Source: a virus
IMG/VR virus record: IMGVR_UViG_3300027969_000206
Location: 1 to 38,787 of that record
Direction: 5' to 3' (one strand)
DNA length: 38,787 bases
The first letter of the stretch is position 1, and each line of letters begins with the position of its first letter. The position numbers were made by a program, and so were the translations under genes. The notes under the pieces were generated by a model. It was given only the letters and a program-made list of their open reading frames with translations. It searched no databases and was not told the origin of the DNA. Positions 25,679 through 38,380 of the stretch are shown here, one piece after another.

Positions 25679-25679
25679 T

Positions 25680-26593: not shown

Positions 26594-27083
26594 TTTATTC
26601 AATTTGCTCAAAGGTATCGCCCCGACATTGGCGACAGCGGTTGCTGGGCCATTGGGCGGTGCTGCCGTTAGCGCTTTGGCTACTAAGTTTGGCGTTTCTG
26701 ATTCTGTTGAGGCTGTGGCTAAGGCTATATCGGGCGACCCTGCGGCTGCACAAAAGCTGGCAGAGTTGGAGTTGGAATATGCCAAGCTAGACATGGCCAA
26801 CACCGCTGATGCTAGAAACATGAACAGTAAGATTCAAGAATCTGAAAATGCTTCATGGGTAGCCAAAAACGCGGCTTACATCCTTGATTTTGCGATTGTG
26901 AGTGCAACCATCATCATGACTTGGATTGTGTTCTTTAAGGGCGTTCCTGTTGAGAATAAAGAGATTGCATATATGGCCATCGGTTCGCTGATAACCATGT
27001 GCGGTACTGTGTTGAACTTTCACCGTGGTTCATCTGCTGGAAGCAAGTCTAAAACCGAAGAGATGATGAGGGCAGTCAAATGA
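26586..27083 (+). CDS. Holin, 3-TM family (PF11351-like)
   Basis: Membrane pore former timing lysis. The 165-residue protein has an N-terminal amphipathic/hydrophobic stretch (IAPTLATAVAGPLGGAAVSA), the GDPAAAQKLAELELEYAKLD segment and two clear TM helices (YILDFAIVSATIIMTWIVFF; IAYMAIGSLITMCGTVLNF), then HRGSSAGSKSKTE. The last motif and overall layout match the 3TM holin family first linked to gene-transfer-agent release. ATG 26586 has AAGGA with good spacing; ATG 26583 is one codon earlier. The endolysin follows with a 4-base overlap. Confidence 0.85.
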   Translation: MNDLFNLLKGIAPTLATAVAGPLGGAAVSALATKFGVSDSVEAVAKAISGDPAAAQKLAELELEYAKLDMANTADARNMNSKIQESENASWVAKNAAYILDFAIVSATIIMTWIVFFKGVPVENKEIAYMAIGSLITMCGTVLNFHRGSSAGSKSKTEEMMRAVK

Positions 27084-27523
27084 ACTTAACACCACACTTT
27101 ACGCTTGAAGAACTTACGCATACCGACCACCGTGAGTTTGACAACACGCCTAATGATTCAGAGTTGGCTAACCTAGTGCGCTTGGCTGACTTTTTAGAAC
27201 AAGTCAAAGTCGTTTTAGGCGGCAAGCCAATCATGGTTAATTCGGCGTTTAGGTGTAAACAGGTCAATGACGCTGTGGGTTCTAAAGACACAAGCCAGCA
27301 CCGTATTGGTTGCGCTGCTGACATTCGTGTGCCAGGCATGACACCAGATCAAGTTGTGAAGGCCATCATTGCGTCTGGCATTGCTTACGACCAAGTGATT
27401 CGTGAGTTTGAAACGCCAACAGGCGGCGGTTGGACACACATTTCTATTCCAAATACTGTTGCAACAGCACCACGCAAACAAGCTCTTATCATTGATAAAG
27501 CTGGCACACGCGCTTATTCATAA
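27080..27523 (+). CDS. Endolysin, M15 family peptidase
   Basis: Zinc peptidase predicted to cleave the stem peptide of peptidoglycan. The 147-residue protein has the M15A-type zinc signature SQHRIGCAAD (His74, Asp81) and a third ligand in GGWTHIS (His120), with NSAFRCKQVN (~54-63) upstream, typical of the Peptidase_M15_3 group. There is no signal peptide, so it needs the holin encoded just before. Length is normal for a single-domain phage M15 endolysin. Confidence 0.95.
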   Translation: MNLTPHFTLEELTHTDHREFDNTPNDSELANLVRLADFLEQVKVVLGGKPIMVNSAFRCKQVNDAVGSKDTSQHRIGCAADIRVPGMTPDQVVKAIIASGIAYDQVIREFETPTGGGWTHISIPNTVATAPRKQALIIDKAGTRAYS

Positions 27524-27554
27524 ATAGGTCATACTGAAAACGTCTAATGCGCTT

Positions 27555-27983
27555 ATGAAAATCAAGCGCGTAGACATTCGCTGTTCAAAAATACAGAAAG
27601 AATTGCAGGTACTTCAAAAAAAGTGCCTACCTTTTGATACACCTTTTAATACAACAACGGGCTGGTGGTGGATAGTTTATGACGCACTCAATTTGCCATG
27701 CGCTTTTGCGGGTCTTGTTCCTTCTGTTCGCTGGGGTGATACTGGTTATTTGTGTCGTGCAGGCGTTCTATCTGGTTATCGTGGACAAGGAATACAGAAA
27801 AGACTTATTCGAGCGAGGATTCGCCAAGCCAGAGCGTTAGGCTGGCGCTGGCTTATTACTGATACATATCTCAACCCTGCATCTTCAAACAGCCTGATCA
27901 ATTGTGGTTTTAAGCTGTTTGAACCGAGTAAACCTTGGGGTGCTACTGGCACTTTATTTTGGCGACTTAAACTGAAGGATTGA
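27555..27983 (+). CDS. GNAT acetyltransferase
   Basis: A 142-residue GNAT protein. The acetyl-CoA loop is evident in CRAGVLSGYRGQGIQKRLIR (R-G-Q-G-I-Q), followed by a helix of basic residues (ARIRQARALGWRWLITDTYL), then NPASSNSLINCGFKLFE, the usual C-terminal strand-helix-strand. It is unrelated in sequence to the GNAT-like gene in the tail block. Substrate unknown; phage GNATs can modify host proteins, toxins or small molecules. It sits after the endolysin and one base before the phosphoesterase gene. Confidence 0.88.
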   Translation: MKIKRVDIRCSKIQKELQVLQKKCLPFDTPFNTTTGWWWIVYDALNLPCAFAGLVPSVRWGDTGYLCRAGVLSGYRGQGIQKRLIRARIRQARALGWRWLITDTYLNPASSNSLINCGFKLFEPSKPWGATGTLFWRLKLKD

Positions 27984-27984
27984 T

Positions 27985-28959
27985 ATGCCTAGACCGTTAT
28001 GTTCAGAAAATGAGTTTATTGAACTGTGGAAGGTTCACGGCTCAACCCAAAAGATTGCTGAAATTCTTGGCACAACCTTACGCAAGGTAAACGCCAGACG
28101 CAGGCGCATTGAGGAAAGACGTAACATTCCATTAGAAAACACTTCAACAAGGGCAGATCAGTTTAGGGGATTGCAGCAAGCTGCAAAGAATCCAGCTAGG
28201 GCTAATTTGGGGATAGAAAATGGAACTGTCATTATTTTCTCTGATTCACATTTTTGGCCAGGTATTCACACTACTGCTTATCGTGGTCTGTTATGGGCTA
28301 TTAAGGAACTGCAACCGAAGGCAGTTATTGCTAACGGCGATGTTTTTGACGGTGCTTCCATTAGCCGTCATCCTCGTATTGGCTGGGATTCAACCCCTAC
28401 TGTTATTCAGGAACTAAAAGCCTGTGATTTAGCAATGGGTGAAATTGAGGAAACCGCCAAAGCCGCCCGTCACAATGTCCAGTTGGTTTGGACGCTTGGA
28501 AACCATGACGCTCGGTTTGAGAATCGTCTAGCCGCAAACGCGCCGCAGTACGAACAAGTTAAAGGGTTTTCCCTTAAAGACCATTTTCCTGCGTGGAAAC
28601 CCTGCTGGTCGTGCTGGGTGACTGATGATGTGGTCGTTAAACACCGCTGGAAGGGCGGTATTCATGCTACCCACAACAACACAGTTGGAAGCGGTAAAAC
28701 AATGGTTACAGGCCATCTACATAGCCTTAAAGTAACGCCTTACGCTGACTACAACGGCAACAGGTTTGGGGTTGATACGGGTACACTTGCTGAGACAGAT
28801 GGCCCACAATTCATGGACTATTTGGAAGACGCGCCTGTTAACTGGCGTTCGGGTTTCGCCGTTCTGTCATTTAAAGATGGGAAACTTCTCTGGCCTGAGT
28901 TAGTTCACAAATGGGCTGATGGGCAAATCGAGTTTCGTGGGCAAATTATTGATGTTTAA
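27985..28959 (+). CDS. Calcineurin-like metallophosphoesterase with N-terminal HTH
   Basis: The 324-residue protein joins an N-terminal helix-turn-helix-like segment (HGSTQKIAEILGTTLRKVNA, residues ~18-38) and basic linker to a metallophosphoesterase domain. Metal motifs in order: FSDSH (Asp87, His89), NGDVFD (Asp119), GNHD (Asn173, His174), HATH (~228-231) and GHLH (His244, His246). All expected residues are present. The HTH suggests nucleic-acid binding, so a DNA or RNA phosphodiesterase role is likelier than a protein phosphatase. It lies at the end of the late operon. Confidence 0.9.
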   Translation: MPRPLCSENEFIELWKVHGSTQKIAEILGTTLRKVNARRRRIEERRNIPLENTSTRADQFRGLQQAAKNPARANLGIENGTVIIFSDSHFWPGIHTTAYRGLLWAIKELQPKAVIANGDVFDGASISRHPRIGWDSTPTVIQELKACDLAMGEIEETAKAARHNVQLVWTLGNHDARFENRLAANAPQYEQVKGFSLKDHFPAWKPCWSCWVTDDVVVKHRWKGGIHATHNNTVGSGKTMVTGHLHSLKVTPYADYNGNRFGVDTGTLAETDGPQFMDYLEDAPVNWRSGFAVLSFKDGKLLWPELVHKWADGQIEFRGQIIDV

Positions 28960-28969
28960 AGGACTAATC

Positions 28970-29218
28970 ATGTACAAAATTGAAATTGACATTTCGGCTT
29001 GGGGTGGTGAAGAAAAGGTAACTATCGAAACTTCAGACTTTGACAAGATTGAGCTAATCCGCGAGTTCATTGAGTTCCAGCAAGAAAACGGCTGGGCTGC
29101 TGACTATGAGCAAGTTGCTGAATTTGATGACGAAGAAGAAGAATTAGAAGAAGACGAAGAAGATGAAGACGAAGCTGTAACCGTCTCCACCTACGTCATT
29201 ACAAAAATCGAAGATTAA
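28970..29218 (+). CDS. Small acidic protein at the end of the late operon
   Basis: An 82-residue protein starting at ATG 28970 with AAAGGA upstream; the frame is open to 28919 but those codons are shadow. The N-terminal ~55 residues look folded (MYKIEIDISAWGGEEKVTIE), followed by an Asp/Glu run of ~20 residues and STYVITKIED. Acidic stretches of this kind occur in DNA-mimic and inhibitor proteins, but no family is evident. Its 3' end overlaps a convergent gene by 20 bases. Confidence 0.72.
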   Translation: MYKIEIDISAWGGEEKVTIETSDFDKIELIREFIEFQQENGWAADYEQVAEFDDEEEELEEDEEDEDEAVTVSTYVITKIED

Positions 29219-29402
29219 ACTTCTGGAAGTTCTTTCCTGCATTTGGGTTGCCTTGACCACGTTTAGGTGGTTGAAGCAACTCATTGTGTGTTTCAGCAAA
29301 GTAGTCCAGATTCGCAATCTGAGCCTTGCGCCAGCCAGTCCTACGATACTTAAAGTCTGAAGGCTTAGGCCAAGGTGCGTTTGGGGCTAATACTGTTTTC
29401 AT
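29199..29402 (-). CDS. Small basic protein ending the leftward operon
   Basis: A 67-residue minus-strand ORF whose start overlaps the stop of the winged-helix gene by ATGA. It is basic and rich in Pro/Asn (MKTVLAPNAPWPKPSDFKYR; QPPKRGQGNPNAGKNFQKFN). It resembles a short DNA-binding tail but I cannot name a family. Overlap with the convergent acidic gene is 20 bases. Tight coupling to its upstream neighbour is the best support. Confidence 0.6.
   Translation of the reverse strand: MKTVLAPNAPWPKPSDFKYRRTGWRKAQIANLDYFAETHNELLQPPKRGQGNPNAGKNFQKFNLRFL
29218..29231. terminator. Possible bidirectional terminator at operon convergence
   Basis: AACTTCTGGAAGTT is a perfect palindrome able to form a 5-bp stem with a 4-nt loop on either strand, followed by TTCTTT-type residues on the plus strand and TTTAATCTT on the minus strand. 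It lies exactly where the two convergent operons meet. The stem is AT-rich and short, so strength is doubtful. Confidence 0.35.
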
Positions 29403-29725
29403 AGGTCAGAAAAATAAACTTTGGTTAATAAATCTTGCTGTTGAGGCTTAAAGCGCCATTCACGCTCTGCCCTGCCGCTGTTAGAAGTTACCTGTTTTCC
29501 AGTTAACTCAATTAAATCCATCTTTTCCAACTCATTCATGCGCCTGGCAACCTGATTGCTTTGCAGTCCTGTGTAGTTAGAAATACCATCTTTGCCCAAT
29601 GGCCCGAATCGTTGTAAACACGCCACAATAACATCGTGGTGCATCTTGGCTATGTCTTTGATGGAATCAGCCGCCTTGAAGCTGGTGATTGCGTCTTTGG
29701 TTCTCGCTCTGAAAAATTCAAACAT
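29399..29725 (-). CDS. Winged-helix DNA-binding protein
   Basis: A 108-residue protein with a MarR/ArsR-like winged-helix core: VACLQRFGPLGKDGISNYTG, LQSNQVARRMNELEKMDLIE (recognition helix), then a basic wing (LTGKQVTSNSGRAEREWRFK). It is the only candidate regulator in the leftward operon. Upstream of its ATG is ATAGGAACCAAT, with AGGA as ribosome binding site. A structured intergenic stretch separates it from the SSB-like gene. It might regulate early-late switching, or be a replication accessory; the sequence does not decide. Confidence 0.75.
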   Translation of the reverse strand: MFEFFRARTKDAITSFKAADSIKDIAKMHHDVIVACLQRFGPLGKDGISNYTGLQSNQVARRMNELEKMDLIELTGKQVTSNSGRAEREWRFKPQQQDLLTKVYFSDL

Positions 29726-29746
29726 ATTGGTTCCTATGAGAAAAGG

Positions 29747-29795
29747 TGGGGGCTACTTGCCATTGGCAACTGCAAATTGTTGACTTTCACCCCCA
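29747..29795 (-). other. Intergenic RNA structure between SSB-like and winged-helix genes
   Basis: On the leftward transcript an outer stem pairs TGGGGG with CCCCCA (29790-29795 and 29747-29752) and encloses a perfect 5-bp hairpin TTGCC-AAT-GGCAA (29757-29769). The outer 3' arm is followed by CCTTTTC, so partial termination or a translational block before the winged-helix gene is possible. Confidence 0.35.
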
Positions 29796-29799
29796 AAAA

Positions 29800-30066
29800 T
29801 TAAAATGGGATTTTGTCATCCATATCATCAAACCCGCCGCTGGCTGGCGCTTTGCCTTTTGCTGGTGCTTTATAGCCATCTGCCTGCGGCTCAAAAAGGT
29901 AAGCCCAGCCTTCCCAGCCGCCTTCAACCAAAGGCATCTGGTCAAGTTTAAGCATCGGGCCTTTCTTGGTTTCGATGACGCTGCCGATGCGCTGGTAGCG
30001 GATTTTCTCTTGCCCGTCTTTCTGGTACACGCCAGCTTTTACGGTTACTTCATAAATTATTGCCAT
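29800..30066 (-). CDS. SSB-like single-stranded DNA-binding protein
   Basis: An 88-residue protein: a short beta-rich domain (MAIIYEVTVKAGVYQKDGQE; YQRIGSVIETKKGPMLKLDQ; LVEGGWEGWAYLFEP), a Gly/Ala/Lys linker, and the acidic C-terminal tip GFDDMDDKIPF. The tip matches the DDDIPF tail with which bacterial SSB recruits repair proteins. The core is smaller than a normal OB-fold SSB (~110 residues), as in several phage SSB-like proteins. It sits with an exonuclease and ERF annealing protein, a standard recombination set. Confidence 0.82.
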   Translation of the reverse strand: MAIIYEVTVKAGVYQKDGQEKIRYQRIGSVIETKKGPMLKLDQMPLVEGGWEGWAYLFEPQADGYKAPAKGKAPASGGFDDMDDKIPF

Positions 30067-30075
30067 TTTGTTTCC

Positions 30076-30705
30076 TTAGTTTGAATGTTCATCTGAAATC
30101 TGCTTTACGACCAAATCGTAAAACTTACGCGCTTCATCAACCTTAAATTTGATCTTGTCTTCTAGTGCTTTATCACGCACATACTTGACCACGGTTACCC
30201 GCAATTCAGGGTTGATGTGTTCTACCTGATGCAGCTTCTTGTCTTCAAAGCCTACAAGGTTGTCTGGTGTGTTTACAAGGCAGTAAGCAATATGGGAATA
30301 GTCCAAGTCCCAAAGCCACATATAAGCCCGTAATTGCCATTCGTATGTCTTATCCTCACCTTGAGAAGATAACACAGGGAAGGTGGCAAGCGACCAGCTA
30401 GATTTGATGTCAATGATTTGGTCTGCTGTAACAATGTCTGCTTCACCAGTTAGCCATTCATTTGTCTTGCGCTCGGTGTTCTTTTTGTAGTTTGAGAACA
30501 TCACAGAGTTAAGCAATTCAATAGAACGGTCTTCAACAAGAATCCCTTTTTCGGTGTACTTGCTAGAAAAGCGTTCATCAAAGCCATACACAAACTCTTT
30601 GGCCTGCTTGGTGATAGCTGTCTTAGCCCCTACTGACAAGGTTTCATCCTTACCTTTAGGGTCTGTCATGATCTCAGCAAGAGAACTAGCGCGAATATTA
30701 AGCAT
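30076..30705 (-). CDS. PD-(D/E)XK exonuclease (YqaJ/lambda Exo-like)
   Basis: Predicted 5'-3' dsDNA exonuclease that makes single strands for annealing. In the 209-residue protein the nuclease motifs are GILVEDRSIEL (Glu59), TGEADIVTADQIIDIKSS (Asp90 region; Asp99, Lys101 of the D-x-K motif) and the downstream QLRAY (124-128), the Q-xxx-Y pattern of the YqaJ/RecB-type family. It overlaps the upstream ERF gene by 8 bases, so the two are translated together, like lambda exo/bet. Confidence 0.9.
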   Translation of the reverse strand: MLNIRASSLAEIMTDPKGKDETLSVGAKTAITKQAKEFVYGFDERFSSKYTEKGILVEDRSIELLNSVMFSNYKKNTERKTNEWLTGEADIVTADQIIDIKSSWSLATFPVLSSQGEDKTYEWQLRAYMWLWDLDYSHIAYCLVNTPDNLVGFEDKKLHQVEHINPELRVTVVKYVRDKALEDKIKFKVDEARKFYDLVVKQISDEHSN

Positions 30706-31279
30706 TTGCTAGTGCCTCCACCACTTGTTTTTCTTGGTCTGTCGTCAAGAAAAAGGTGTCACGCAGCTTCTCGGTTGTGTATTGACCAGCAAGAATTTTG
30801 TCAATTGCGCCTTGTAAGCGTTTAGCGTCTAGCGTTGGCTTGTTAGCGACTACATCATGCGTTTGTCCGTCTGCATCGTTATCGCCTTCAGTTGGAATTG
30901 CAAAAGTCTGGAAAGCCATGTATTTGTAAGCGGCTGACATTGCTTTGTTTGTCCCTTTGTCGCCTGAATCCATTGCTTCGCCAAAAGTCCGAGCTATATG
31001 CTTAGACCCATCTTCTGCACTAACCAAGTCAAACTCAGCCTCTACGGTGATGTAAAACAATGCCCCACCTGCTTTGCTAACACGTTCCTCACTAATCCTT
31101 GTAAGCATCCTTGGAATGATGCAAAGGCCGTTTTTAGCCATGATTGAAGACAAGACGTTGTAGACAGCATCAATGCCTCGAAAGTTGTAGCCAGCACCTT
31201 GGTTGTTGCGTGATGACTTGCTAATTCCGATTGCTGCCAATTCGGTTTGTACTGCGTTAATTGCTTGATAAACTTTCAT
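30698..31279 (-). CDS. erf: ERF-family single-strand annealing protein
   Basis: Phage recombinase pairing complementary single strands. The 193-residue protein carries the ERF core: MKVYQAINAVQTELAAIGIS, YNFRGIDAVYNVLSSIMAKN, and DSGDKGTNKAMSAAYKYMAF leading to FAIPTEGDNDADGQ, all hallmarks of PF04404. A less conserved ~50-residue C-terminal region follows. It partners with the exonuclease directly downstream and the SSB-like protein. Its start overlaps the stop of a 38-residue membrane peptide gene by ATGA. Confidence 0.93.
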   Translation of the reverse strand: MKVYQAINAVQTELAAIGISKSSRNNQGAGYNFRGIDAVYNVLSSIMAKNGLCIIPRMLTRISEERVSKAGGALFYITVEAEFDLVSAEDGSKHIARTFGEAMDSGDKGTNKAMSAAYKYMAFQTFAIPTEGDNDADGQTHDVVANKPTLDAKRLQGAIDKILAGQYTTEKLRDTFFLTTDQEKQVVEALANA

Positions 31280-31392
31280 AGTCCAGTCCAGATTAAGATG
31301 AATACGGTGAAGGCGGCAACAACATAAAGAACACGCAAGACGCGCTCAAAAAGTGGTTTCTTTGGTGGGTCAGGGTAAAAAGTGTTTTTCAT
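31276..31392 (-). CDS. 38-residue single-TM peptide coupled to ERF
   Basis: A tiny minus-strand ORF from ATG 31392, flanked by ATGA overlaps on both sides (with the gene ending at 31389 and with ERF at 31279). Sequence: a proline/lysine-rich start (MKNTFYPDPPKKPLFERVLR) followed by a membrane helix (VLYVVAAFTVFILIWTGL). The double coupling is strong support. Role unknown; it could anchor or simply be a small early membrane protein affecting the host. Confidence 0.75.
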   Translation of the reverse strand: MKNTFYPDPPKKPLFERVLRVLYVVAAFTVFILIWTGL

Positions 31393-31607
31393 GTTCGCTC
31401 CATCATTTCGTTAGCCAAGTTAGTAATACGCATAGATTCTGAAGGTTTCAGATCGTACGTGATGTTGTACAAGCTATGGGCAATAAAAACAAACGCATCA
31501 TCTGGGTCGTCAAAAGCCACAATGACAGCGCAATTCATGCCGCTGAAATTCACGCTGGTGAAGATTTGATGTGCAAACTGATCGGGGAAGATGTAAGTGC
31601 GTTTCAT
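31389..31607 (-). CDS. 72-residue early protein, unknown
   Basis: Starts at ATG 31607 with AAGG nine bases upstream; the frame is open to 31634 but that start lacks a ribosome binding site. It begins MKRTYIFPDQFAHQIFTSVN and continues with hydrophobic strands (MNCAVIVAFDDPDDAFVFIA). The first gene of the operon begins similarly, MKQTYIVEF. No family recognised. Its stop overlaps the next start by ATGA. Confidence 0.72.
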   Translation of the reverse strand: MKRTYIFPDQFAHQIFTSVNFSGMNCAVIVAFDDPDDAFVFIAHSLYNITYDLKPSESMRITNLANEMMERT

Positions 31608-31612
31608 TTTGT

Positions 31613-31759
31613 TCAACCTTGAAAAATTTGGCAATGAGTTCCACGTTTCACCATAAGTGAAATAAAACCAAGTGCTTTTGTGATTGAAGTGAACTCAATG
31701 CGTGACCAGCCATCTTGAGTGTTTGTTGTGTTGAATTCAACAATGTAAGTCTGTTTCAT
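31613..31759 (-). CDS. 48-residue first gene of leftward operon
   Basis: ATG 31759 with TAGGA six bases upstream opens a 48-residue frame: MKQTYIVEFNTTNTQDGWSR, then IEFTSITKALGFISLMVKRG, ending THCQIFQG before TGA at 31613. Good ribosome binding site, first position after the divergent control region and close spacing to the next gene (5 bases) support it. It looks like a small alpha/beta protein. First genes of early operons often act on the host, but nothing in the sequence shows how. Confidence 0.72.
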   Translation of the reverse strand: MKQTYIVEFNTTNTQDGWSRIEFTSITKALGFISLMVKRGTHCQIFQG

Positions 31760-31796
31760 ATCGTTTCCTAAGTTACCGCTTGCGTTGCGCTACGGG

Positions 31797-31835
31797 ATGT
31801 ATGAATAATAAGCCAAATTATCAAGATTTACCACA
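31797..31835 (-). promoter_or_regulatory. Candidate leftward early promoter
   Basis: On the minus strand TATTAT (31805-31810, 5 of 6 to TATAAT) lies ~46 bases upstream of the first leftward gene, giving a start near 31797. No good -35 is present at 17 bases; TTGATA-like sequence is closer and TTGTGG is at about 20 bases. The location between divergent genes requires a promoter here. Confidence 0.4.
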
Positions 31836-31855
31836 ATCAGTAAAAATATTTTGCT

Positions 31856-31875
31856 TTGTTGCTTTGGTGCAACAA
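31856..31875. promoter_or_regulatory. Operator-like inverted repeat over rightward promoter
   Basis: TTGTTGC (31856-31862) and GCAACAA (31869-31875) form a perfect 7-bp inverted repeat with a 6-bp spacer, a 20-bp dyad. It covers the -35 region of the rightward promoter, as repressor operators do. A weaker dyad, TTTAC-N8-GTAAA, lies at 31827-31844 between the two promoters. The Cro-like protein encoded next is the likely ligand. Confidence 0.6.
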
Positions 31876-31893
31876 TCTAGCTTATGGCATAAT
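31864..31893 (+). promoter_or_regulatory. Candidate rightward early promoter
   Basis: -10 CATAAT (31888-31893) with a weak -35 TTGGTG (31864-31869), spacer 18. Transcription would begin at about 31899-31901, on or next to the ATG of the Cro-like gene, which has no ribosome binding site upstream. That implies a leaderless message, as known for lambda cI from PRM. Confidence 0.55.
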
Positions 31894-31900
31894 AAAAGTT

Positions 31901-32074
31901 ATGGATAAACAATATTTTGTAAAGTTGGCAGGCTCACAGCGTAAGCTCGCAGACTTGTTGGGCATAAAACAACCAGCGGTAGGTGCTTGGAAGCACGTTC
32001 CAAAGGCTAGAATTTGGCAATTGAAACTGTTAAAACCTGAATGGTTTGAAGGGATGGAACATGAGTTACGCTGA
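31901..32074 (+). CDS. Cro-like HTH repressor
   Basis: A 57-residue DNA-binding protein with YdaS/Cro-type helix-turn-helix: YFVKLAGSQRKLADLLGIKQ and PAVGAWKHVPKARIWQLKLL, in which KLADLLGIKQPAVGAW is the HTH. It is first in the rightward operon, next to an operator dyad. The frame is open to 31856, across the promoter, but ATG 31901 is the natural start. No partner CI repressor is found in the window, so it probably tunes early transcription in a lytic cycle. Confidence 0.85.
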   Translation: MDKQYFVKLAGSQRKLADLLGIKQPAVGAWKHVPKARIWQLKLLKPEWFEGMEHELR

Positions 32075-32351
32075 AACAGAGATGAAAATTATCCGCCAGG
32101 TCGAGGCAACTCGCGGCATTGACGGAAACATTGAGATTGACCTGGAGGCCATTGAAGACTACATGGAATCCTTGCGCTGGTTTAACGAGCAAGAAAGCCC
32201 AGACAAGATGGCCAAGATGATTGGCTGGATTGGTTTATCGCTGATCAGCATCTGTGCGACTTTAGATGTGAACTTTGCTGACTGCTTAGAGGTTGCCTAT
32301 GAAGAAGGCGAAGGCAATCAAGAAGTTTTTGAAGAAGATCAGGATTCTTAA
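32061..32351 (+). CDS. 96-residue acidic early protein
   Basis: ATG 32061 overlaps the Cro-like gene by 14 bases and has AAGGG upstream. The protein is acidic and helical: MSYAETEMKIIRQVEATRGI, IEIDLEAIEDYMESLRWFNE, then a hydrophobic helix (MIGWIGLSLISICATLDVNF) and an acidic tail. The ATLDVNFADCLEVAYEEG stretch faintly recalls MazG-type helices, but key acidic motifs are not evident, so I leave it unassigned. In lambda this place holds cII; no HTH is visible here. Confidence 0.72.
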   Translation: MSYAETEMKIIRQVEATRGIDGNIEIDLEAIEDYMESLRWFNEQESPDKMAKMIGWIGLSLISICATLDVNFADCLEVAYEEGEGNQEVFEEDQDS

Positions 32352-32361
32352 AAAATCTGTG

Positions 32362-32367
32362 TATAAT
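32362..32367 (+). promoter_or_regulatory. Consensus -10 box before the structured RNA
   Basis: A perfect TATAAT lies 10 bases after the stop of the preceding gene. The -35 region (about 32339-32344, TCAGGA) is poor, so an activator or a weak promoter is implied. Transcription would start near 32374, just upstream of the long-stem RNA. Confidence 0.5.
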
Positions 32368-32373
32368 CCAAAT

Positions 32374-32530
32374 TGTCTGAGTGGCATCGGACGACAGGAA
32401 CCAACCGTAGAACCCCCGAATATTTTTGGTGGTCTTGCAAAGCAGTAAATAATCTTTTGGTTGGTTCCAATCGTTTACTTGCCGCCTCGCCAAGGCCAAG
32501 ATCACCAAAAGTGTTTGGGGGTTTTTGTTT
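32374..32530 (+). ncRNA. Predicted structured RNA ending in a terminator
   Basis: Bases 32412-32437 pair with 32497-32522 in an uninterrupted 26-bp stem; the four non-Watson-Crick positions are all G-U on the plus strand, so the pairing is RNA-specific to this strand. The stem is followed by TTTTTGTTTT. Inside the 59-nt loop, AGTAAA (32444-32449) pairs with TTTACT (32474-32479), extended by GC/GC across a bulge, and TTGG/CCAA forms an apical hairpin. GGAACCAACC (32397-32406) is a perfect complement of the apical GGTTGGTTCC (32459-32468), a possible pseudoknot. It lies between cro-type and replication genes, where lambda has nutR, tR1 and OOP. Confidence 0.7.
32412..32530 (+). terminator. Long-stem terminator of the structured RNA
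   Basis: The 26-bp stem described for the structured RNA closes with GGGGG(32517-32521) pairing to CCCCC (32413-32417) and runs straight into T5GT4 (32522-32530). A GC-rich stem base followed by a U-tract is the intrinsic-terminator arrangement, although the 59-nt loop is unusually long. It would act like lambda tR1 between the cro and replication genes. Confidence 0.65.
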
Positions 32531-32730
32531 TGGGCAGACCGAGTGACTCACGTTACGTTACTGGGCCTGCATGGGCTGCCAAGTCAAGAAACACCGTCAT
32601 CAGGATACACCCCCTGCATTGTCGAACAGCGTTGATTGAGCGACTGTTAAAGGATTGGGTACAACGGTGGAACAAGGCTCAATCTCTAAGTGAATCAATT
32701 CGTCAAGCGCACTTGGTCTTAAGACTGTGA
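32530..32730 (+). CDS. Possible 66-residue protein after the terminator
   Basis: From TTG 32530 the frame reads MGRPSDSRYVTGPAWAAKSR, then a stretch with NTVIRIHPLHCRTALIERLL and KDWVQRWNKAQSLSESIRQA before TGA 32730. The residue mix looks protein-like and a GGGGG lies nine bases upstream. The frame is open further up (to 32461) but only through the structured RNA. Without a good start or a recognised family it may be chance; the alternative is a ~200-base non-coding stretch. Confidence 0.4.
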   Translation: MGRPSDSRYVTGPAWAAKSRNTVIRIHPLHCRTALIERLLKDWVQRWNKAQSLSESIRQAHLVLRL

Positions 32731-32829
32731 GATGAACCTTTATGAACTTCTATGTGATACAGATTGAAAGATGGAGCGGGAATGGATACTTATCCACCCT
32801 TGGAGAACCTATGCCCAAAAGGAAACAAG

Positions 32830-33192
32830 ATGTTTGAACAATTCTGGACTGCTTGGCCTAAGAACCCAAGAAAAGGCGGCAAGGCTATTTGCCAGGCTAA
32901 ATGGTCAAAGTTAAAGCTGGACTTGCAAGCCGATCAAATCATTAAACACGTTGAATGGATGAAAACAACAGACGCATGGAAAAAAGACAACGGTGCTTTT
33001 ATTCCTGCCCCGCTGGTATACATCAATCAAATGCGTTGGGATGGGGCTGAGATACCAGACATAGAAATAACCGTGTCTGTGGCCTTTAAAGACCCTGCTT
33101 TGCGAAAGATTGAGGAAGACAGCAAACGTGCTGCCAAACCATCGTTAGAAGTGTTGGCACGAATGGCTGAATTACGAAAGCAGGTGGCGTAA
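32830..33192 (+). CDS. Replication-type protein (standalone C-terminal domain)
   Basis: The 120-residue protein FEQFWTAWPKNPRKGGKAIC, then AKWSKLKLDLQADQIIKHVE, DAWKKDNGAFIPAPLVYINQ and MRWDGAE matches the domain found at the C-terminus of many phage replication initiators (lambda O/DnaT-like context), where F(W)xxWPrK...FIPxPxxxLnxxRW is typical. Here it stands alone. ATG 32830 has AAAAGGAAA at ideal spacing; in-frame ATG 32782 (GGAG upstream) and TTG 32764 give longer forms. A 31-codon ORF (32742-32837) overlaps the front in another frame. Confidence 0.75.
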   Translation: MFEQFWTAWPKNPRKGGKAICQAKWSKLKLDLQADQIIKHVEWMKTTDAWKKDNGAFIPAPLVYINQMRWDGAEIPDIEITVSVAFKDPALRKIEEDSKRAAKPSLEVLARMAELRKQVA

Positions 33193-33566
33193 TGACAAAA
33201 ATTTACAAATCTTCTGAATACATGAGAGAAAAAGCAAAAGCCTGGCGCTTGGCTAATCCTGACCGTGTTGCTGCTTACAGAGTGAAAAACAGAAGCAAAA
33301 ACCATAGGCAAGATGTTGTTCGTAAATATGGTGTTGCCTTTGAATGGTTTGATGAGCAACTTGAAAAACAAGATAAATCATGTGCAACTTGCCATAAGCC
33401 ACTTGAATGGACAGACAAGCAAAACACGCCCCATGTTGACCATTGCCATTCAACAGGAAAAGTAAGAGGGATTCTTTGCAATCGTTGCAACACGGTTTTA
33501 GGTCTTTGCGAAGACAACAAAGAATTATTTAAAAATTTAACAGGATATTTGGAATGTCATGGTTAA
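33192..33566 (+). CDS. Recombination endonuclease VII family nuclease
   Basis: Branch-cutting HNH-type nuclease like T4 gp49. The 124-residue protein has zinc ligands Cys64, Cys67 (SCATC) and Cys96, Cys99 (LCNRC) around the catalytic HVDHCHSTGKVRGILCNRCN, the hallmark of PF02945. The basic N-terminus (KAKAWRLANPDRVAAYRVKN) is typical of the family. It begins in a TAATG overlap with the previous gene and overlaps the methyltransferase start by 8 bases. Likely role: resolving branched DNA before packaging, with the ERF/exonuclease system. Confidence 0.93.
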   Translation: MTKIYKSSEYMREKAKAWRLANPDRVAAYRVKNRSKNHRQDVVRKYGVAFEWFDEQLEKQDKSCATCHKPLEWTDKQNTPHVDHCHSTGKVRGILCNRCNTVLGLCEDNKELFKNLTGYLECHG

Positions 33567-34492
33567 TCAGCAAAGCCTTAATGAACTCGCACTTTTTGCA
33601 GGAGCAGGTGGAGGAATACTTGGGGGAAAACTTCTCGGATGGAGAACAGTCTGCGCCGTTGAATGGGAACCCTATCCAGCAAGCGTATTGTGCGCCCGAC
33701 AAAATGACGGTCTTCTCCCGCCTTTCCCGATTTGGGATGACGTACAAACCTTTGATGGAAAGCCGTGGCGAGGAATTGTTGACGTTATATCGGGCGGTTT
33801 TCCTTGCCAGGACATTAGTGCCGCAGGAAAAGGCGCAGGAATTAATGGAGAGCGAAGTGGAATGTGGGGAGAAATGGCGCGCATCATTCACGAAGTACGA
33901 CCCAGATTCGTTTTCGTGGAAAACTCACCAATGCTCACTTCTAGGGGACTTGGACGAGTTCTCGGAGACTTGGCCGCAATGGGGTTTGATGCGAGATGGG
34001 GAGTGTTGGGAGCAGCGGATGTTGGAGCAAACCATCAGAGGGACAGAATCTGGATTGTCGCCAAATGGCGTGGACAGCTTTCACACGCCAAACACGACAG
34101 GATTGGACGGTGGGAGCAACAGCAGGAAGGCGCTAAAGAAACGTCAAGAGATGTGGCCGACACCTTGTGCAACAGATCACAAAGGGGCGGGCAAGATGGG
34201 GACTTTGCGGGACAGATTGGATTACGCGGCAGAGAGGGGAGCAACCAAGAGCAAGACCTACACATGGCCAACACCCAGAACAAAGGGTATGTGCGGTGGA
34301 TCGGGAGCATGGGCGCAACTGAAAGCCAACACAACGATAGAGGAAGCCAGAGCAATGGGCGCGGGGAATGGTGGGAAACTGAACCCAGCGTGGGTCGAGT
34401 GGTTGATGGGTTGGCCTCCAGAGTGGACAGACTTAAAGCCATTGGAAACGGACAAGTCCCATTGTGTGCCGCAACAGCATGGAGAATCCTAA
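33554..34492 (+). CDS. Long ORF overprinting the methyltransferase gene (+1 frame)
   Basis: A 312-residue ORF covering 934 of the 942 bases of the methyltransferase gene in the +1 frame. It has tryptophan-rich recurring motifs: YDPDSFSWKTHQCSLLGDLD, FSETWPQWGLMRDGECWEQ, two WPTP elements (MWPTPCATDHKGAG; TWPTPRTKG) plus HTPNTTG, and LNPAWVEWLMGWPPEWTDLK. I recall proteins with SWKT..CSL..D, WP.WGMMR.GECW and LNPAWVEWLMGWP in other phage genomes, often near or overlapping dcm-like genes. GGA precedes ATG 33554 only weakly. Whether it is expressed is unknown. Confidence 0.5.
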   Translation: MSWLISKALMNSHFLQEQVEEYLGENFSDGEQSAPLNGNPIQQAYCAPDKMTVFSRLSRFGMTYKPLMESRGEELLTLYRAVFLARTLVPQEKAQELMESEVECGEKWRASFTKYDPDSFSWKTHQCSLLGDLDEFSETWPQWGLMRDGECWEQRMLEQTIRGTESGLSPNGVDSFHTPNTTGLDGGSNSRKALKKRQEMWPTPCATDHKGAGKMGTLRDRLDYAAERGATKSKTYTWPTPRTKGMCGGSGAWAQLKANTTIEEARAMGAGNGGKLNPAWVEWLMGWPPEWTDLKPLETDKSHCVPQQHGES

Positions 34493-34500
34493 GCCAATGA
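33559..34500 (+). CDS. C5-cytosine DNA methyltransferase
   Basis: Transfers methyl from S-adenosylmethionine to cytosine C5. The 313-residue protein has motif I LFAGAGGG (12-19), motif IV GGFPCQDIS with catalytic Cys83, motif VI VFVENS (118-123), motif VIII HQRDRIWIV (159-167) and motif X KAIGNGQVP (293-301). Between VIII and X the target-recognition region (~170-285) is hydrophilic and low in hydrophobic residues. GGA precedes ATG 33559. There is no restriction partner, so it is an orphan enzyme, probably for protection from host restriction. Local GC is higher than in neighbours. Confidence 0.93.
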   Translation: MVNQQSLNELALFAGAGGGILGGKLLGWRTVCAVEWEPYPASVLCARQNDGLLPPFPIWDDVQTFDGKPWRGIVDVISGGFPCQDISAAGKGAGINGERSGMWGEMARIIHEVRPRFVFVENSPMLTSRGLGRVLGDLAAMGFDARWGVLGAADVGANHQRDRIWIVAKWRGQLSHAKHDRIGRWEQQQEGAKETSRDVADTLCNRSQRGGQDGDFAGQIGLRGREGSNQEQDLHMANTQNKGYVRWIGSMGATESQHNDRGSQSNGRGEWWETEPSVGRVVDGLASRVDRLKAIGNGQVPLCAATAWRILSQ

Positions 34501-34700
34501 ACTACTTTGAAGCGCACAAAATTCTTGACCAAGTTCGTGATAATGTGTCTTATAATATAGACACGATTAACAAGGCTTTGGAACTAACAGGTGACTTGGA
34601 CTTTGGAGAATGTGAGGGAGATGCAAATCCAGCATCTCACAAATATGGCTCGCAAGCCTGGCTGGAGAGCTTATGCCAAGGCAAGGTCAAAGGAACTTGA
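34497..34700 (+). CDS. 67-residue early protein
   Basis: ATG 34497 overlaps the methyltransferase stop by ATGA; the frame is open to 34464 but those codons are shadow. MNYFEAHKILDQVRDNVSYN, IDTINKALELTGDL then GSQAWLESLCQGKVKGT. It looks like a small helical protein of the kind abundant in phage early regions. No family recognised. A promoter-like dyad lies inside it at 34545-34564. Confidence 0.7.
   Translation: MNYFEAHKILDQVRDNVSYNIDTINKALELTGDLDFGECEGDANPASHKYGSQAWLESLCQGKVKGT
34545..34564. promoter_or_regulatory. TATAAT inside a perfect dyad (intragenic)
   Basis: GTGTCT-TATAATAT-AGACAC: perfect 6-bp arms flank a consensus TATAAT. TTGACC (34525-34530, 5 of 6 to TTGACA) lies 20 bases upstream of it, a long spacer. 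It is within a coding region, so it may be chance, or an internal regulated promoter for the small-gene run that follows. Confidence 0.3.
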
Positions 34701-34764
34701 AAAAGAAGACTTGTTTAAAGGTATCACCAATGAAGTGCGAAAGCGCCTAAAGGAGCAGCCATGA
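34621..34764 (+). CDS. 47-residue basic protein
   Basis: A short frame missed by length cut-offs: MQIQHLTNMARKPGWRAYAK, then ARSKELEKEDLFKGITNEVR and KRLKEQP. It overlaps the previous gene by 80 bases and the next start by ATGA (34761). ATG 34621 directly follows GAGGGAG, too close for that site; ATG 34645 (MARKPGWRAY) is an alternative. Strong positive charge and helix content suggest nucleic-acid or protein binding; no family known to me. Confidence 0.6.
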   Translation: MQIQHLTNMARKPGWRAYAKARSKELEKEDLFKGITNEVRKRLKEQP

Positions 34765-34964
34765 ACACGAAACTTAATGCAGCATTTGCCGATCTTGATT
34801 ATGAAAACTCGCCAGAGGAACTCCAGCGCGTCATTGACGTATTGGATGCAACCCGTAAGGCGTGGTTAAGCATGACCCAAGCTGATTACGACAAACTGGT
34901 TTGGGAAGAAGAACGCATTGCCATTCAACGGGTTGAATTTGAAATGAACGGGGTTGATGAATGA
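34761..34964 (+). CDS. 67-residue helical early protein
   Basis: Starts at ATG 34761 with AAAGGAG upstream and is ATGA-coupled at both ends. MNTKLNAAFADLDYENSPEE, LQRVIDVLDATRKAWLSMTQ, DYDKLVWEEERIAIQRVEFE: acidic, all-helical. No family recognised. Confidence 0.75.
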   Translation: MNTKLNAAFADLDYENSPEELQRVIDVLDATRKAWLSMTQADYDKLVWEEERIAIQRVEFEMNGVDE

Positions 34965-35140
34965 CTCTGGCATTTGACATTTGCCGCTGCAACGGGTTGC
35001 GTGATGACTGTAATCGTTTGGTTACACCTTGTGCAACTTGCCGCAGAGTGTTGGAGAAAGAGCCAAGTGGCCCAAGAACGCCTTGGATGGAGCCTCCAAT
35101 AAAAGACGGTGTGTGCGAATACGTTATTCAAACACACTAA
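34961..35140 (+). CDS. 59-residue cysteine-rich protein (zinc-ribbon-like)
   Basis: ATG 34961 overlaps the previous stop by ATGA and the frame runs to TAA 35140. Six cysteines at residues 8, 10, 17, 24, 27 and 52: ICRCNG, DDCNRL, PCATCRR, then VCEYVIQTH. The spacing could bind one zinc (for example C8/C10 or C17 with C24-x-x-C27). Small zinc-binding proteins are common in early phage regions. Function unknown. Confidence 0.72.
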   Translation: MTLAFDICRCNGLRDDCNRLVTPCATCRRVLEKEPSGPRTPWMEPPIKDGVCEYVIQTH

Positions 35141-35166
35141 CCATAATTAACATATATGTGAACAAA

Positions 35167-35325
35167 ATGGCTGAAACAGACAATTTAATGTTAGCTGAGT
35201 TAGAACAAGAGAGCAGGCTCATGAGGGCTAGAAATGCCCGTCTTGAGGCTGAGGTAACTGTGCTAACCGAGATGGTGCGTGTACTGTCTGACAAGCTGGC
35301 ACAGATGGAGGCTAAGCATGAATAA
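35167..35325 (+). CDS. 52-residue coiled-coil protein
   Basis: ATG 35167 opens MAETDNLMLAELEQESRLMR, ARNARLEAEVTVLTEMVRVL, SDKLAQMEAKHE, a continuous heptad-like helix. GTG 35158 is an alternative start; the frame is open further upstream only as shadow. It overlaps the next gene by 8 bases. Likely a small oligomeric or adaptor helix; no family assigned. Confidence 0.7.
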   Translation: MAETDNLMLAELEQESRLMRARNARLEAEVTVLTEMVRVLSDKLAQMEAKHE

Positions 35326-36064
35326 AGAAACAATGAAGCTGGCGCTTGAGGTGCTACAAGAAAACCATCATTTGATTGAAGAATACGAACACCCTGATTA
35401 TTTGGCGCATTATGACCGAGTAATCGGCGAAGTTGCAAAAGCACTAGCCAAGCAAGAGCAGAAACGACCACAAAACTGTGGCACTTCATATTGCAGTTGC
35501 ATTGAGTGTGTGATGGATGAGCAAGAGCAGGGTGAGCCAGCGTTTTATGCACATGATGGCTACTTAATGACACCAGAGCGTGCAAAGTTCCTTGGTTTTC
35601 CATTGGATAGCATTCTTGCTCTCTACACCACACCACCGCACAGTTTCTTTGAAGACGTAGCGGATGACTTGCGCGTAGAAATAGCAGAATTACAAGATCA
35701 TGTTCGTTTGCTGGAGAAGCAATTAGCACAGCAAAAGCAGGGTGAGCCAGATGATGAAGAAGTGCTTGGCTTTAACGGTTGGGGGTTTCCTATTGAGCCT
35801 CCATCAAAGCAAGAGCAGGGTGAGTTTGTGGCAATAGTTGAAGAATTGCCAACTGGTGAAGGCAACCCACCATTTAAGTTTGCAGACCTTCGTAATGTGC
35901 CAACTGGTGCAAAGCTCTACACCACACCACAACAACGCACATGGGTTGGGCTGACGGATGAGGAAATTGAAAAGATGCGGCATTTAATTGACTGGACGGC
36001 ACATTGGTCATATGGAATATTTGCCAAAGCTATTGAAGCCAAACTCAAGGAGAAGAACACATGA
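35318..36064 (+). CDS. Modular protein with QEQGE linkers, unknown
   Basis: A 248-residue protein from ATG 35318. It contains LALEVLQENHHLIEEYEHPD at the start, a CGTSYCSCIECVMDEQEQGE cysteine cluster, then units separated by (K/E)QEQGE(P/F): each unit carries a short beta pattern ending LALYTTPPHSF or AKLYTTPQQRTW. It ends GLTDEEIEKMRHLIDWTAHW, a helix seen in many phage early proteins. Units look like shuffled cassettes. Function unknown; the modules are recurrent in environmental phages. Confidence 0.7.
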   Translation: MNKETMKLALEVLQENHHLIEEYEHPDYLAHYDRVIGEVAKALAKQEQKRPQNCGTSYCSCIECVMDEQEQGEPAFYAHDGYLMTPERAKFLGFPLDSILALYTTPPHSFFEDVADDLRVEIAELQDHVRLLEKQLAQQKQGEPDDEEVLGFNGWGFPIEPPSKQEQGEFVAIVEELPTGEGNPPFKFADLRNVPTGAKLYTTPQQRTWVGLTDEEIEKMRHLIDWTAHWSYGIFAKAIEAKLKEKNT

Positions 36065-36741
36065 CACCGCTAATCAAAGAGATGGTTAAGTTGGTTTCGG
36101 TGGCCGACTTTGACCCAACGCAGATGCAATGGTTTGATGTAACTGGAGCAATCAAAGAATACATTGGCTATGACCAGCGTAAATACTTGCTACATCCAGC
36201 CCCATATAAAAACATGATGCTTTGTGGTCGTACAGAGCAAGGCGACTTCATGTTGTCAGTGCTGGCAGAGCCAGCGGCAACCATTGTGACGGGTTGGATT
36301 ATGAAACCAACGGGTTACAAAACCCTTGGGACTTTTTTGTTTGCTGAAGACAATGGAGAGCCAAAGACAGGCGAGGTTGACAAACCAATTGACCCGCAAG
36401 ACCAGTCAATGATGTGCGCGATTGTTGCCATGTTTTACGCCTCTTTGGATATGAAAGTTGAAGCGTATGTGCCAACAGCAAAGGACACATTCACAAACCG
36501 CCGCAAAATAAAAGAAGGCAAACTTCCCACATACGACTGGCACACAGTAGTAATTGAGCCATCACACGCAAAACAAGAACATCAAGGCGGCACACACGCA
36601 AGCCCACGAAGGCATCAAGCAAGAGGTCATTGGAGAACCTACAAATCAGGTAAACGCGGTTGGGTCAAAGAATGCTGGCGCGGCGATGCAAGTAAGGGTG
36701 CGGTGTTTAAAGATTATGAACTCAAGGATAAAAACACATGA
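36061..36741 (+). CDS. 226-residue early protein with C-terminal WR-rich motif
   Basis: Overlaps its upstream neighbour by ATGA. The first ~150 residues look like a compact alpha/beta domain (DFDPTQMQWFDVTGAIKEYI; GDFMLSVLAEPAATIVTGWI). The C-terminus SPRRHQARGHWRTYKSGKRG, then WVKECWRGDASKGAVFKDYE, is a basic motif (RGHWR...W....GD...G...KDYE) common at the ends of unrelated phage proteins. No enzymatic motif is clear. Next gene begins with an ATGA overlap. Confidence 0.7.
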   Translation: MTPLIKEMVKLVSVADFDPTQMQWFDVTGAIKEYIGYDQRKYLLHPAPYKNMMLCGRTEQGDFMLSVLAEPAATIVTGWIMKPTGYKTLGTFLFAEDNGEPKTGEVDKPIDPQDQSMMCAIVAMFYASLDMKVEAYVPTAKDTFTNRRKIKEGKLPTYDWHTVVIEPSHAKQEHQGGTHASPRRHQARGHWRTYKSGKRGWVKECWRGDASKGAVFKDYELKDKNT

Positions 36742-36839
36742 TTGAAAACATTTGCATGATCGTGCTACTAATTGGACTGGGCGTTGTTATAACAATAGCA
36801 ATGTTAGTGTGCGTTTTAATGTTAAGTTACAAAGAATGA
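36738..36839 (+). CDS. 33-residue single-TM peptide
   Basis: ATG 36738 and TGA 36839, coupled by 4-base overlaps at both ends. MIENICMIVLLIGLGVVITI then AMLVCVLMLSYKE: almost entirely one hydrophobic helix with a charged C-terminus. The double coupling argues that it is real. Function unknown; small early membrane peptides may affect host membranes or superinfection. Confidence 0.65.
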   Translation: MIENICMIVLLIGLGVVITIAMLVCVLMLSYKE

Positions 36840-37108
36840 GATACGCCGCCCGCGTGGATTCCAACCAAACCCAGATCGTAAGTGCATTACGCGCTGCTGG
36901 CGCTTACGTTTGGATTATTGGCCTGCCAGTTGATCTTTTAGTTGGCTACAACGGTCACACGTTTTTGGTTGAGATAAAAGCAGACTCCAAAAAGCGTTTA
37001 ACGAAGCTGCAAGCCGACTTTTTTGAGAATTGGGCTGGTAGTACGCTGGCAAGGATTGATGGCCCTGAAGCCGCTTTAAGAATGATTGGCGTATGCGGTA
37101 CAACCTAG
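36836..37108 (+). CDS. VRR-NUC/PD-(D/E)XK-like small nuclease
   Basis: ATG 36836 overlaps the previous stop by ATGA. The 90-residue protein has NQTQIVSALRAAGAYVWIIG, LPVDLLVGYNGHTFLVEIKA: catalytic candidates Asp33, Glu46 and Lys48 in the D-x12-E-x-K pattern, after a helix that aligns with VRR-NUC domains. The C-terminus KLQADFFENWAGSTLARIDG fits the same fold. VRR-NUC proteins of phages cut branched DNA. It overlaps ninB by 16 bases. Confidence 0.82.
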   Translation: MRYAARVDSNQTQIVSALRAAGAYVWIIGLPVDLLVGYNGHTFLVEIKADSKKRLTKLQADFFENWAGSTLARIDGPEAALRMIGVCGTT

Positions 37109-37512
37109 ACGACCAGGCTCAAGCCACGAGCCTGATGAAACATCTGTGGCCAAAAGTGAAACAATCGTTGTCTGATGGAAAACAGTTAACGCTAGAGATT
37201 AAGCCAGCCAGCAAGAGCCGCGACCAAGAGGAAAAGTATCACGCCATCATTGGCGACATTGCCAAGCAAGCGCAGCACATGGGGGCTAAGTGGTCAGCAG
37301 AGGACTGGAAAAGAATGTTAGTTTGGCAATACTGCAAAGATAACCAACTAGATTGTGGCAAGGTCGTGCCAAGTCTTGACATGACGGGAATTGTCCAACT
37401 TGGGATGCAAACCCGCAAGTTCACAAAAGAACAGGCCAGCGAGTTTGTTTCATTCTTAATCTGCTGGTGTGACCAAAACGGGATAGAGCTAAATGATGAT
37501 TCCAAAGTTTAG
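37093..37512 (+). CDS. ninB: NinB recombination protein
   Basis: Lambda NinB (Orf) family: binds single-stranded DNA and helps recombination in place of host RecFOR. The 139-residue protein has LTLEIKPASKSRDQEEKYHA, IIGDIAKQAQHMGAKWSAED, WKRMLVWQY and FTKEQASEFVSFLICWCDQN, matching PF05772 in length and layout. It stands in the rightward operon just as in the lambda nin region, followed by a NinG/DUF968-like nuclease gene. Confidence 0.9.
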   Translation: MRYNLDDQAQATSLMKHLWPKVKQSLSDGKQLTLEIKPASKSRDQEEKYHAIIGDIAKQAQHMGAKWSAEDWKRMLVWQYCKDNQLDCGKVVPSLDMTGIVQLGMQTRKFTKEQASEFVSFLICWCDQNGIELNDDSKV

Positions 37513-37816
37513 CTATTACCGTAGCAAGAAGCATTTAAAGAATGTGGCCAGCCTGCCATGCCAGATATGCTACGTTGAAGGCAGAACGCAGGCATCACAT
37601 TCAAACCAAGCCGTACATGGCAAAGGCCGTTCGCTTCGTGCTTCTGACGAATTTACGGCTGCTATCTGTGTGGAACATCATTATGAAATAGATCAAGGCT
37701 CCAATTTGACTAAGCAACAACGCGTTAATATGTGGAATGAGGCTTACCAAAAGACGGTCAATCAGTTAAAATCGCAAGGACTTTGGCCTGCTGAACTAAG
37801 GAATAACAATGGTTAA
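37493..37816 (+). CDS. DUF968/NinG-like zinc nuclease
   Basis: A 107-residue protein with YYRSKKHLKNVASLPCQICY, VEGRTQASHSNQAVHGKGRS, SDEFTAAICVEHHYEIDQGS and MWNEAYQKTVNQLKSQGLW. The pattern C-x-x-C, (A)SHSN...GKG...D...A.C..HH..IDQG matches the DUF968-like HNH proteins that follow ninB in many phages and are considered structure-specific nucleases. Met1 (37493) or Met2 (37496) may be used. It overlaps ninB by 20 bases. Confidence 0.85.
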   Translation: MMIPKFSYYRSKKHLKNVASLPCQICYVEGRTQASHSNQAVHGKGRSLRASDEFTAAICVEHHYEIDQGSNLTKQQRVNMWNEAYQKTVNQLKSQGLWPAELRNNNG

Positions 37817-38198
37817 ATACCGCGCAAGCATTGAAACAGACCCAGTAATGCAATTTACAATGTGCCTATTGCATAGCGTCACAAACGCGCATATCTTGCA
37901 TCTGACGACCACAAGTTACTCAGAGCATAAGGCACTTGAATCTTTTTACACAGAGATTGGCGGCTTGGTTGATGACTTTGTTGAGGCGTTTCAAGGTAAA
38001 TACGGCTTATTGCATGATTTCACTACCGATTATGTTTTGCCAGCTAACGCGCTGGAATATCTGACATACCTAAAAGATGAAGTTGAGGCAGTAAGACGTA
38101 TGCCAAAATTCCCAAAGGATTCAGAGTTGCAAAACATTGTCGATGAAATTGCATCATTGATTGATTCAACGCTGTATAAACTACGTTTCTTAAAGTAA
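37809..38198 (+). CDS. DUF5856-like ferritin-fold helical protein
   Basis: A 129-residue all-helical protein with CLLHSVTNAHILHLTTTSYS, EHKALESFYTEIGGLVDDFV and EAFQGKYGLL. The H...HILHL....YS.H.AL..FY..I..L.D.F.E...G pattern recalls DUF5856 and Dps/ferritin-like four-helix proteins of phages, which have no proven function. The start overlaps the previous gene by 8 bases and the stop is in TAATG with the next. Confidence 0.78.
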   Translation: MVKYRASIETDPVMQFTMCLLHSVTNAHILHLTTTSYSEHKALESFYTEIGGLVDDFVEAFQGKYGLLHDFTTDYVLPANALEYLTYLKDEVEAVRRMPKFPKDSELQNIVDEIASLIDSTLYKLRFLK

Positions 38199-38380
38199 TG
38201 CCATTAAGACGCACACAAAACGGCTGGATGTGGGGAAGCAAAGGGCCGTTTTTAACTAAAGCACAAGCCTTGGCAGTCGCAAGGGCAGCTTATGCACATG
38301 GATTTAAAGATGCCAACAGCCCCGTTCAATCAGAAGTGCAGTCATCTTGGATGCAAGAACCCAAGAAGCAAGCTCAATAG
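38198..38380 (+). CDS. 60-residue small basic protein
   Basis: MPLRRTQNGWMWGSKGPFLT, KAQALAVARAAYAHGFKDAN then a polar tail. The first 40 residues (RR...GW.WGSKGP...K..A..QA.AAYA.G) are a frequently seen phage small protein upstream of HNH/terminase genes. It starts in TAATG with the previous gene and overlaps the HNH start by 71 bases. Function unknown. Confidence 0.7.
   Translation: MPLRRTQNGWMWGSKGPFLTKAQALAVARAAYAHGFKDANSPVQSEVQSSWMQEPKKQAQ

Follow-up and report, generated by a model that had tools for sequence, protein, structure and literature searches.

A predicted, previously uncatalogued phage small RNA with a hypervariable, covarying pseudoknot

In phage lambda, tR1 and the pR'-tR' leader RNA are marked by their promoter and operon position and by a terminator in the regulatory region, while the phage immunity RNAs of the P4 CI and P1 C4 type contain segments complementary to each other, by which specificity could be set. 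The put element of HK022, about 70 nt long and made of two stem-loops, suppresses termination (PMC9378689). It affects termination downstream of itself, by way of the zinc-binding domain in the beta' subunit of RNAP. GOLLD and ROOL are elaborate phage-encoded noncoding RNAs of unknown function, GOLLD having a conserved and a less conserved half (PMC12286853). Here we describe an RNA element, RNA1, in a virus record of 38787 bases, analysed at its full length and called the window below. The record carries terminase, portal, head, tape-measure, Erf, Cro, MazG-like, replication, endonuclease VII and DNA methylase genes. The terminase shares 72% identity with the terminase of Methylophilaceae phage P19250A, which suggests a related betaproteobacterium as host, probably one of freshwater.

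RNA1 lies between the early genes and the replication gene (rep), with a terminator ahead of rep. An initial annotation had placed it between the cro-like and replication genes; rep does lie downstream, but a MazG-like gene intervenes after the cro-like gene (Table 1). That annotation had described a perfect TATAAT followed by an uninterrupted 26-bp stem running into T5GT4, and all of these are present: the arms at 32412-32437 and 32497-32522 form 26 unbroken pairs, namely 22 Watson-Crick and four G-U with no A-C, and T5GT4 occupies 32522-32531. Three outer positions extend this stem, P1, to 29 pairs (five G-U, no A-C), and it is the longest inverted repeat within 31700-33300. The argument from strand asymmetry, originally made for the one stem, generalises to P1 in 53 diverse relatives, which show 143 G-U against 25 A-C cells. 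The plus-strand RNA folds with a z of -4.42 against dinucleotide shuffles (0 of 200 as stable), and the minus strand less favourably (z -2.39). The helix is therefore real, but it is one helix only of a pseudoknotted fold, and the structured region reaches to about 32715; the initial annotation had overlooked both the S1:S1' pseudoknot and a second module, RNA2.

Table 1. Features of the RNA1-RNA2 locus and its flanking genes, in positions of the window.
Feature	Position	Strand	Basis or remark
MazG-like gene	32061..32351		between cro-like gene and RNA1
-10 promoter box TATAAT	32362..32367	+	no good -35 in the window copy
HPI, 5' hairpin, loop GUGGCA (32381-32386)	32373..32394	+	loop invariant in 121 rows
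RNA1, predicted transcript of ~158 nt	32374..32531	+	conservation edges; covariance model match
S1, pseudoknot 5' strand, GGAACCAACC	32397..32406	+	covaries with 32459-32468
P1 5' arm (32412-32437 plus three outer positions)	32409..32437	+	15 of 29 pairs changed on both sides
P2 5' strand, partner 32473-32482	32442..32450	+	covarying pairs 32442-32482, 32445-32479
Conserved CUUUUG ahead of S1'	32454..32459	+	alignment
S1', pseudoknot 3' strand, GGUUGGUUCC, inside P2 loop	32459..32468	+	covariation with S1
P2 3' strand	32473..32482	+	covariation
P3 mini-hairpin GCCUCGCCAAGGC	32484..32496	+	alignment
P1 3' arm	32497..32525	+	pairing with 32409-32437; covariation
U-rich tail T5GT4GG, intrinsic-terminator tail	32522..32533	+	family consensus TTTTTGCTTTTGG
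RNA2 (type ii), second structured noncoding module, ends approximate	32536..32715	+	covarying helices, 32 rows
RNA2 hairpin 32564-32567 / 32574-32577	32564..32577	+	covariation run
RNA2 hairpin, loop 32634-32639 pairs with 32695-32700 (second pseudoknot)	32625..32648	+	covariation
RNA2 helix 32653-32659 / 32678-32684	32653..32684	+	covarying 32653-32684, 32655-32682, 32657-32680
Replication-like protein gene (rep)	32764..33189		downstream of RNA1

Covariation was assessed over all column pairs by a G-test with average-product correction, assuming no structure. The top-ranked pairs inside RNA1 belong to P1 (32421-32513, 32417-32517), S1 (32400-32465, 32401-32464), P2 (32442-32482) and HPI, whose closing pair 32380-32387 covaries; high-ranking pairs beyond 32540 partly reflect mixed downstream modules. 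In the 53-row alignment, changes on both sides of a pair number 279 cells against 95.9 ± 8.1 in shuffles, and the covariation score is 0.278 against 0.137 for shuffled and 0.074-0.158 for slid partners, the shuffles in both comparisons ignoring phylogeny. The structure was carried over from the window copy to the MAFFT columns of these 53 rows, and for this reason the per-helix percentages for HPI and for parts of S1 and P2 are probably underestimates. Conservation and covariation, by which the initial annotation had proposed to judge the stem, are both found in viral relatives, and covariation together with the G-U/A-C asymmetry strongly supports its view that selection acts on the RNA and not on a DNA palindrome.

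The S1 duplex has an energy of -16.5 kcal/mol. The GCCA loop of P3 could in addition pair with UGGC of the HPI loop. A loop-loop contact of the GUGGCA loop in the class to which the window copy belongs (class A) is supported by a third variant (L035, 2584-2708), whose hairpin loop GUGGCAUCA has a perfect complement, UGAUGCCAC, close to the apex. A switch between P1 and hairpins local to its arms was considered and rejected: the energies are near-equal in some rows, yet the local hairpins show no covariation. Pairing of the tail GCUUUUGG with CCAAGAGC, plausible by eye in several rows, was likewise rejected, being absent from the covarying pairs.

The conservation edges of RNA1 are sharp and fall at the -10 box and just past the U-rich tail; the start was placed about 7 nt after the -10 box and the end at the tail. 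The box matches TATAAT at five or six of six positions in 100 of 121 relatives, and 66 of the 121 match TTGACA at four or more of six positions in the -35 box. The window copy has no good -35 box; by sequence signature RNA1 carries its own promoter, with a weak -35 element in the window. The signature at the 3' end is a stem followed by a U tract, at least six of the first 8 nt of the tail being T in 115 of 121 rows. Majority conservation in the 121-row family stays at about 0.9 through the tail; beyond TTTTTGCTTTTGG the rows continue into several different sequences, so that it falls at once to about 0.5. The upstream neighbours also vary (cro-like, MazG-like, HTH, rep or terminase) and downstream lie rep and others, so that RNA1, found in several contexts, is independent of any one downstream gene. 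A covariance model of RNA1 scores 139.9 bits on the window, which was in its training set (E 1.4e-31), and recovers a locus outside that set, L011, with E 6.9e-13. Four long records with a match were searched over their whole length, and each genome has one copy of RNA1, the second match in each being the reverse complement of the same place.

The sharp edges, the -10 and -35 boxes, the T tail and the varied neighbours favour an autonomous module. Of the possibilities raised by the initial annotation, that of a free small RNA agrees best with these features; a conditional terminator is possible, and an element of the HK022 put kind is not supported. We consider it fairly probable that RNA1 is transcribed from a promoter of its own, ends at its own terminator and exists as a free small RNA locked by the pseudoknot. 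The helices, the pseudoknot, the promoter and terminator signatures and the modularity come directly from the computation; from them we infer the transcript ends, a fold in cis, stability and action in trans. A sigma-70-type promoter would start transcription at the 5' hairpin, and the 29-bp stem with its U-rich tail would end it some 158 nt later. S1 would pair with S1' during synthesis, before the 3' arm of P1 exists, and P1 would close afterwards. If P2 folds back beside P1 from the three-way junction with P3, all helices can coexist in one molecule, since the P2+S1 rod (~20 bp) is shorter than P1 (29 bp); on this geometric argument, the idea that S1:S1' and P1 are mutually exclusive in one molecule was dropped. 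The product would be a compact, knotted RNA that begins with a hairpin and finishes with a long stem, and for that reason it should be long-lived and capable of acting away from its gene. Counting against the free small RNA, a terminator ahead of rep in the window requires readthrough by part of the transcripts.

Almost every RNA1 locus continues into RNA2, which hints at a joint role in cis and also counts against a free RNA1. In the window it is of type ii, and in 32 rows its hairpin and second pseudoknot contain the covarying pairs 32626-32647, 32629-32644, 32631-32641, 32635-32699 and 32638-32696. Type ii also occurs in 40 loci that have no class A RNA1 (including MW202484.1, 33595-33844), where it follows other elements, most of them of a class B that combines a -10-like box with a 5' hairpin and a long stem, the stem ending in a T run. 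Examples of class B are found in L318 (MW202484.1, ~33512-33622), L021, L033, L073 and L080. The loop of the class B 5' hairpin has a 7-nt core complementary to a segment at the P1/P2 junction, with 14 distinct cores in 27 rows. Homology of the two classes was rejected: the class A model scores class B non-significantly and layout alone is shared. Pairing of a 5' element with the apical portion of a long terminator stem is thus an arrangement found again in sequences that are unrelated. Elsewhere class A is followed by RNA2 of other types, namely i (L108, L133), iv (L119, L124) and vi (L145, L160); these are conserved, noncoding and apparently structured stretches of ~230-420 nt, with no Rfam match in the loci tested. 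Where close relatives of the MazG-like gene occur (L319-L328), the gene is directly followed by TATAAT and a different conserved stretch, GTTTTGAAACAAGGCTAGGTGCGAAG..., and then by another gene; in four loci part of that stretch matches the terminal portion of RNA2 type vi. The related phage MW202484.1 also has long stretches free of annotated genes (27336-28263, 34158-34841 and 35678-37293), which are possible further noncoding RNAs.

A conditional terminator, or attenuator, of the early operon is compatible with a free small RNA, neither excluding the other, but we hold it to be rather unlikely as the explanation of RNA1. S1:S1' would form first and, if stabilised by a factor, would delay or distort closure of the outer P1 and permit readthrough into RNA2 and rep. 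Such an order of events agrees with the transcription of S1 and S1' ahead of the P1 3' arm, with a linker of 0-9 nt between S1 and P1 in most rows, and with relatives that fold alternatively at similar energy with S1:S1' as a nested helix. The position of the window element between early genes and rep, and the presence of RNA1-like elements of two unrelated sequence classes at the same place before RNA2, would suit it as well. However, the local hairpins of the alternative state lack the covariation that the full P1 shows, class A RNA1 also stands in other contexts, for example behind a terminase gene or rep, and no ligand or factor is known.

S1/S1' changes faster than the rest of RNA1. There are 86 distinct S1 sequences in 121 rows, and in 99% of rows S1 can pair with S1' over 8 positions or more, as against 42% when the partners are taken from different rows. 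Mean S1' identity drops from 0.95 where the flanks exceed 0.98 to 0.78 where they lie at 0.93-0.96 (random pairs, 0.65), and the cores can be unrelated between rows with flanks ~97% identical, for example L133 and L197. This block-wise difference between RNAs otherwise ~97% identical seems to go beyond the needs of a structural helix and would fit intermolecular pairing, in which two copies are joined through the S1 of the first and the S1' of the second to give a dimer or larger assembly and the fast-changing pair serves as a self-recognition code. ROOL, GOLLD and OLE RNAs, which form homo-oligomers, offer a precedent (PMC12286853). We nevertheless regard this as unlikely, since the pseudoknot is geometrically possible in cis if P2 folds back, and the class B rod is shorter and should form easily in cis. 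Antisense action of S1 or S1' on other sites was rejected; the S1 10-mer GGAACCAACC has an exact plus-strand copy at 24415-24424 of the window, inside a 1293-aa ORF, weakly more than expected by chance, but 9-mers of S1 and S1' are not enriched elsewhere in their own loci, where no trans target and no general pattern was found, a result that also counts against the free small RNA.

A broader and more speculative proposal, which we put forward with little confidence, is that RNA1-RNA2 represents a new class of modular phage noncoding locus in which a pseudoknotted RNA1 driven by a promoter, and belonging to one of at least two classes alike in layout but unrelated in sequence, is joined to one of several unrelated structured RNA2 types, the fast-diversifying pair acting as a self-recognition or specificity code between RNAs, for example those of competing phages. 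Improbable, too, is a pre-primer or origin RNA for phage replication, similar to ColE1 RNA II and made beside the replication gene: RNA1 stands ahead of rep in the window and many relatives, and its hypervariable compensated pairing recalls plasmid copy-control RNAs, but in L040, L148 and L122 it is found either downstream of rep or at a distance from it, and it ends in a terminator-like tail. A small protein gene with an incidental RNA fold is most improbable of all. In its favour, 90 of 121 rows have one or more reading frames open across RNA1, and the spacing between the loops of HPI and P3 shows a 3-nt periodicity that lacks an explanation (106, 109 or 112 nt in 77 rows of the 121-row family). 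Against it, the middle of RNA1, P1 arm included, is read in three frames across relatives, all nine combinations of phase occur between conserved anchors, the relatives share no start codon, variation in the tested part of RNA1 is highest at codon position 2 and not at third positions, the synonymous ratio is not special to the open frame, and the helices covary; no conserved reading frame with synonymous bias was found in RNA1, which we judge noncoding.

Relatives were collected with the downstream replication-like protein, which gave 80 viral loci, many with an RNA1 relative just upstream, with the exact 5' arm, which gave five more, and with a conserved 16-mer; rows found by the 16-mer are biased to contain it, whereas those from the protein and arm searches are unbiased. 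HMM scanning places RNA1 in at least 148 viral loci, with at least 121 distinct sequences. The window and 12 relatives have no covariance-model match in Rfam 15 at the gathering cut-off, and E-value scans gave chance-level weak matches only (microRNA, snoRNA and sRNA models), strongly supporting the earlier statement that no described family has this layout. By blastn RNA1 has no match among named phages in an annotated phage collection, and it is missing from the stretch 24000-38749 of P19250A. Bacterial homologues were sought and rejected: bacterial contigs fetched with the 16-mer contain no RNA1, the few HMM matches with E<1 being short fragments (E 0.005 or worse); the 108 genome-wide 16-mer matches are, by our own estimate, about what chance gives in that much sequence; and the RNA1 model had no match in any of 300 genomes from the order to which L222 belongs, in a search with stricter filters and no positive control. 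As predicted from sequence, RNA1 is a previously uncatalogued small RNA. It is common in viral metagenomes and small enough for direct probing; nature already supplies sequence exchanges confined to one helix, and a second structured RNA accompanies it, so that its function is testable by simple compensatory mutants. Few of the known phage RNA families are this complex, and for most of them the function is open.

Set beside the described systems, RNA1 resembles the P4 CI and P1 C4-type RNAs in having complementary segments that could set specificity; it differs in lacking an Rfam match and in its absence from the bacterial genomes sampled, so that no role in prophage immunity is visible. GOLLD and ROOL are, like RNA1, elaborate phage-encoded noncoding RNAs but much larger, and RNA1 matches neither of their family models in Rfam. 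With HK022 put it shares the character of a structured phage RNA near an early promoter and on the same strand as the early genes; a put-like identity is not supported because it is not a two-stem-loop RNA of ~70 nt but one of ~158 nt, with HPI, P1, P2, P3, a pseudoknot and its own terminator at the end. Lambda tR1 and the pR'-tR' leader RNA are like RNA1 in promoter and operon position and in the terminator within a phage regulatory region, whereas in RNA1 the internal fold, with its covarying pseudoknot, is itself conserved.
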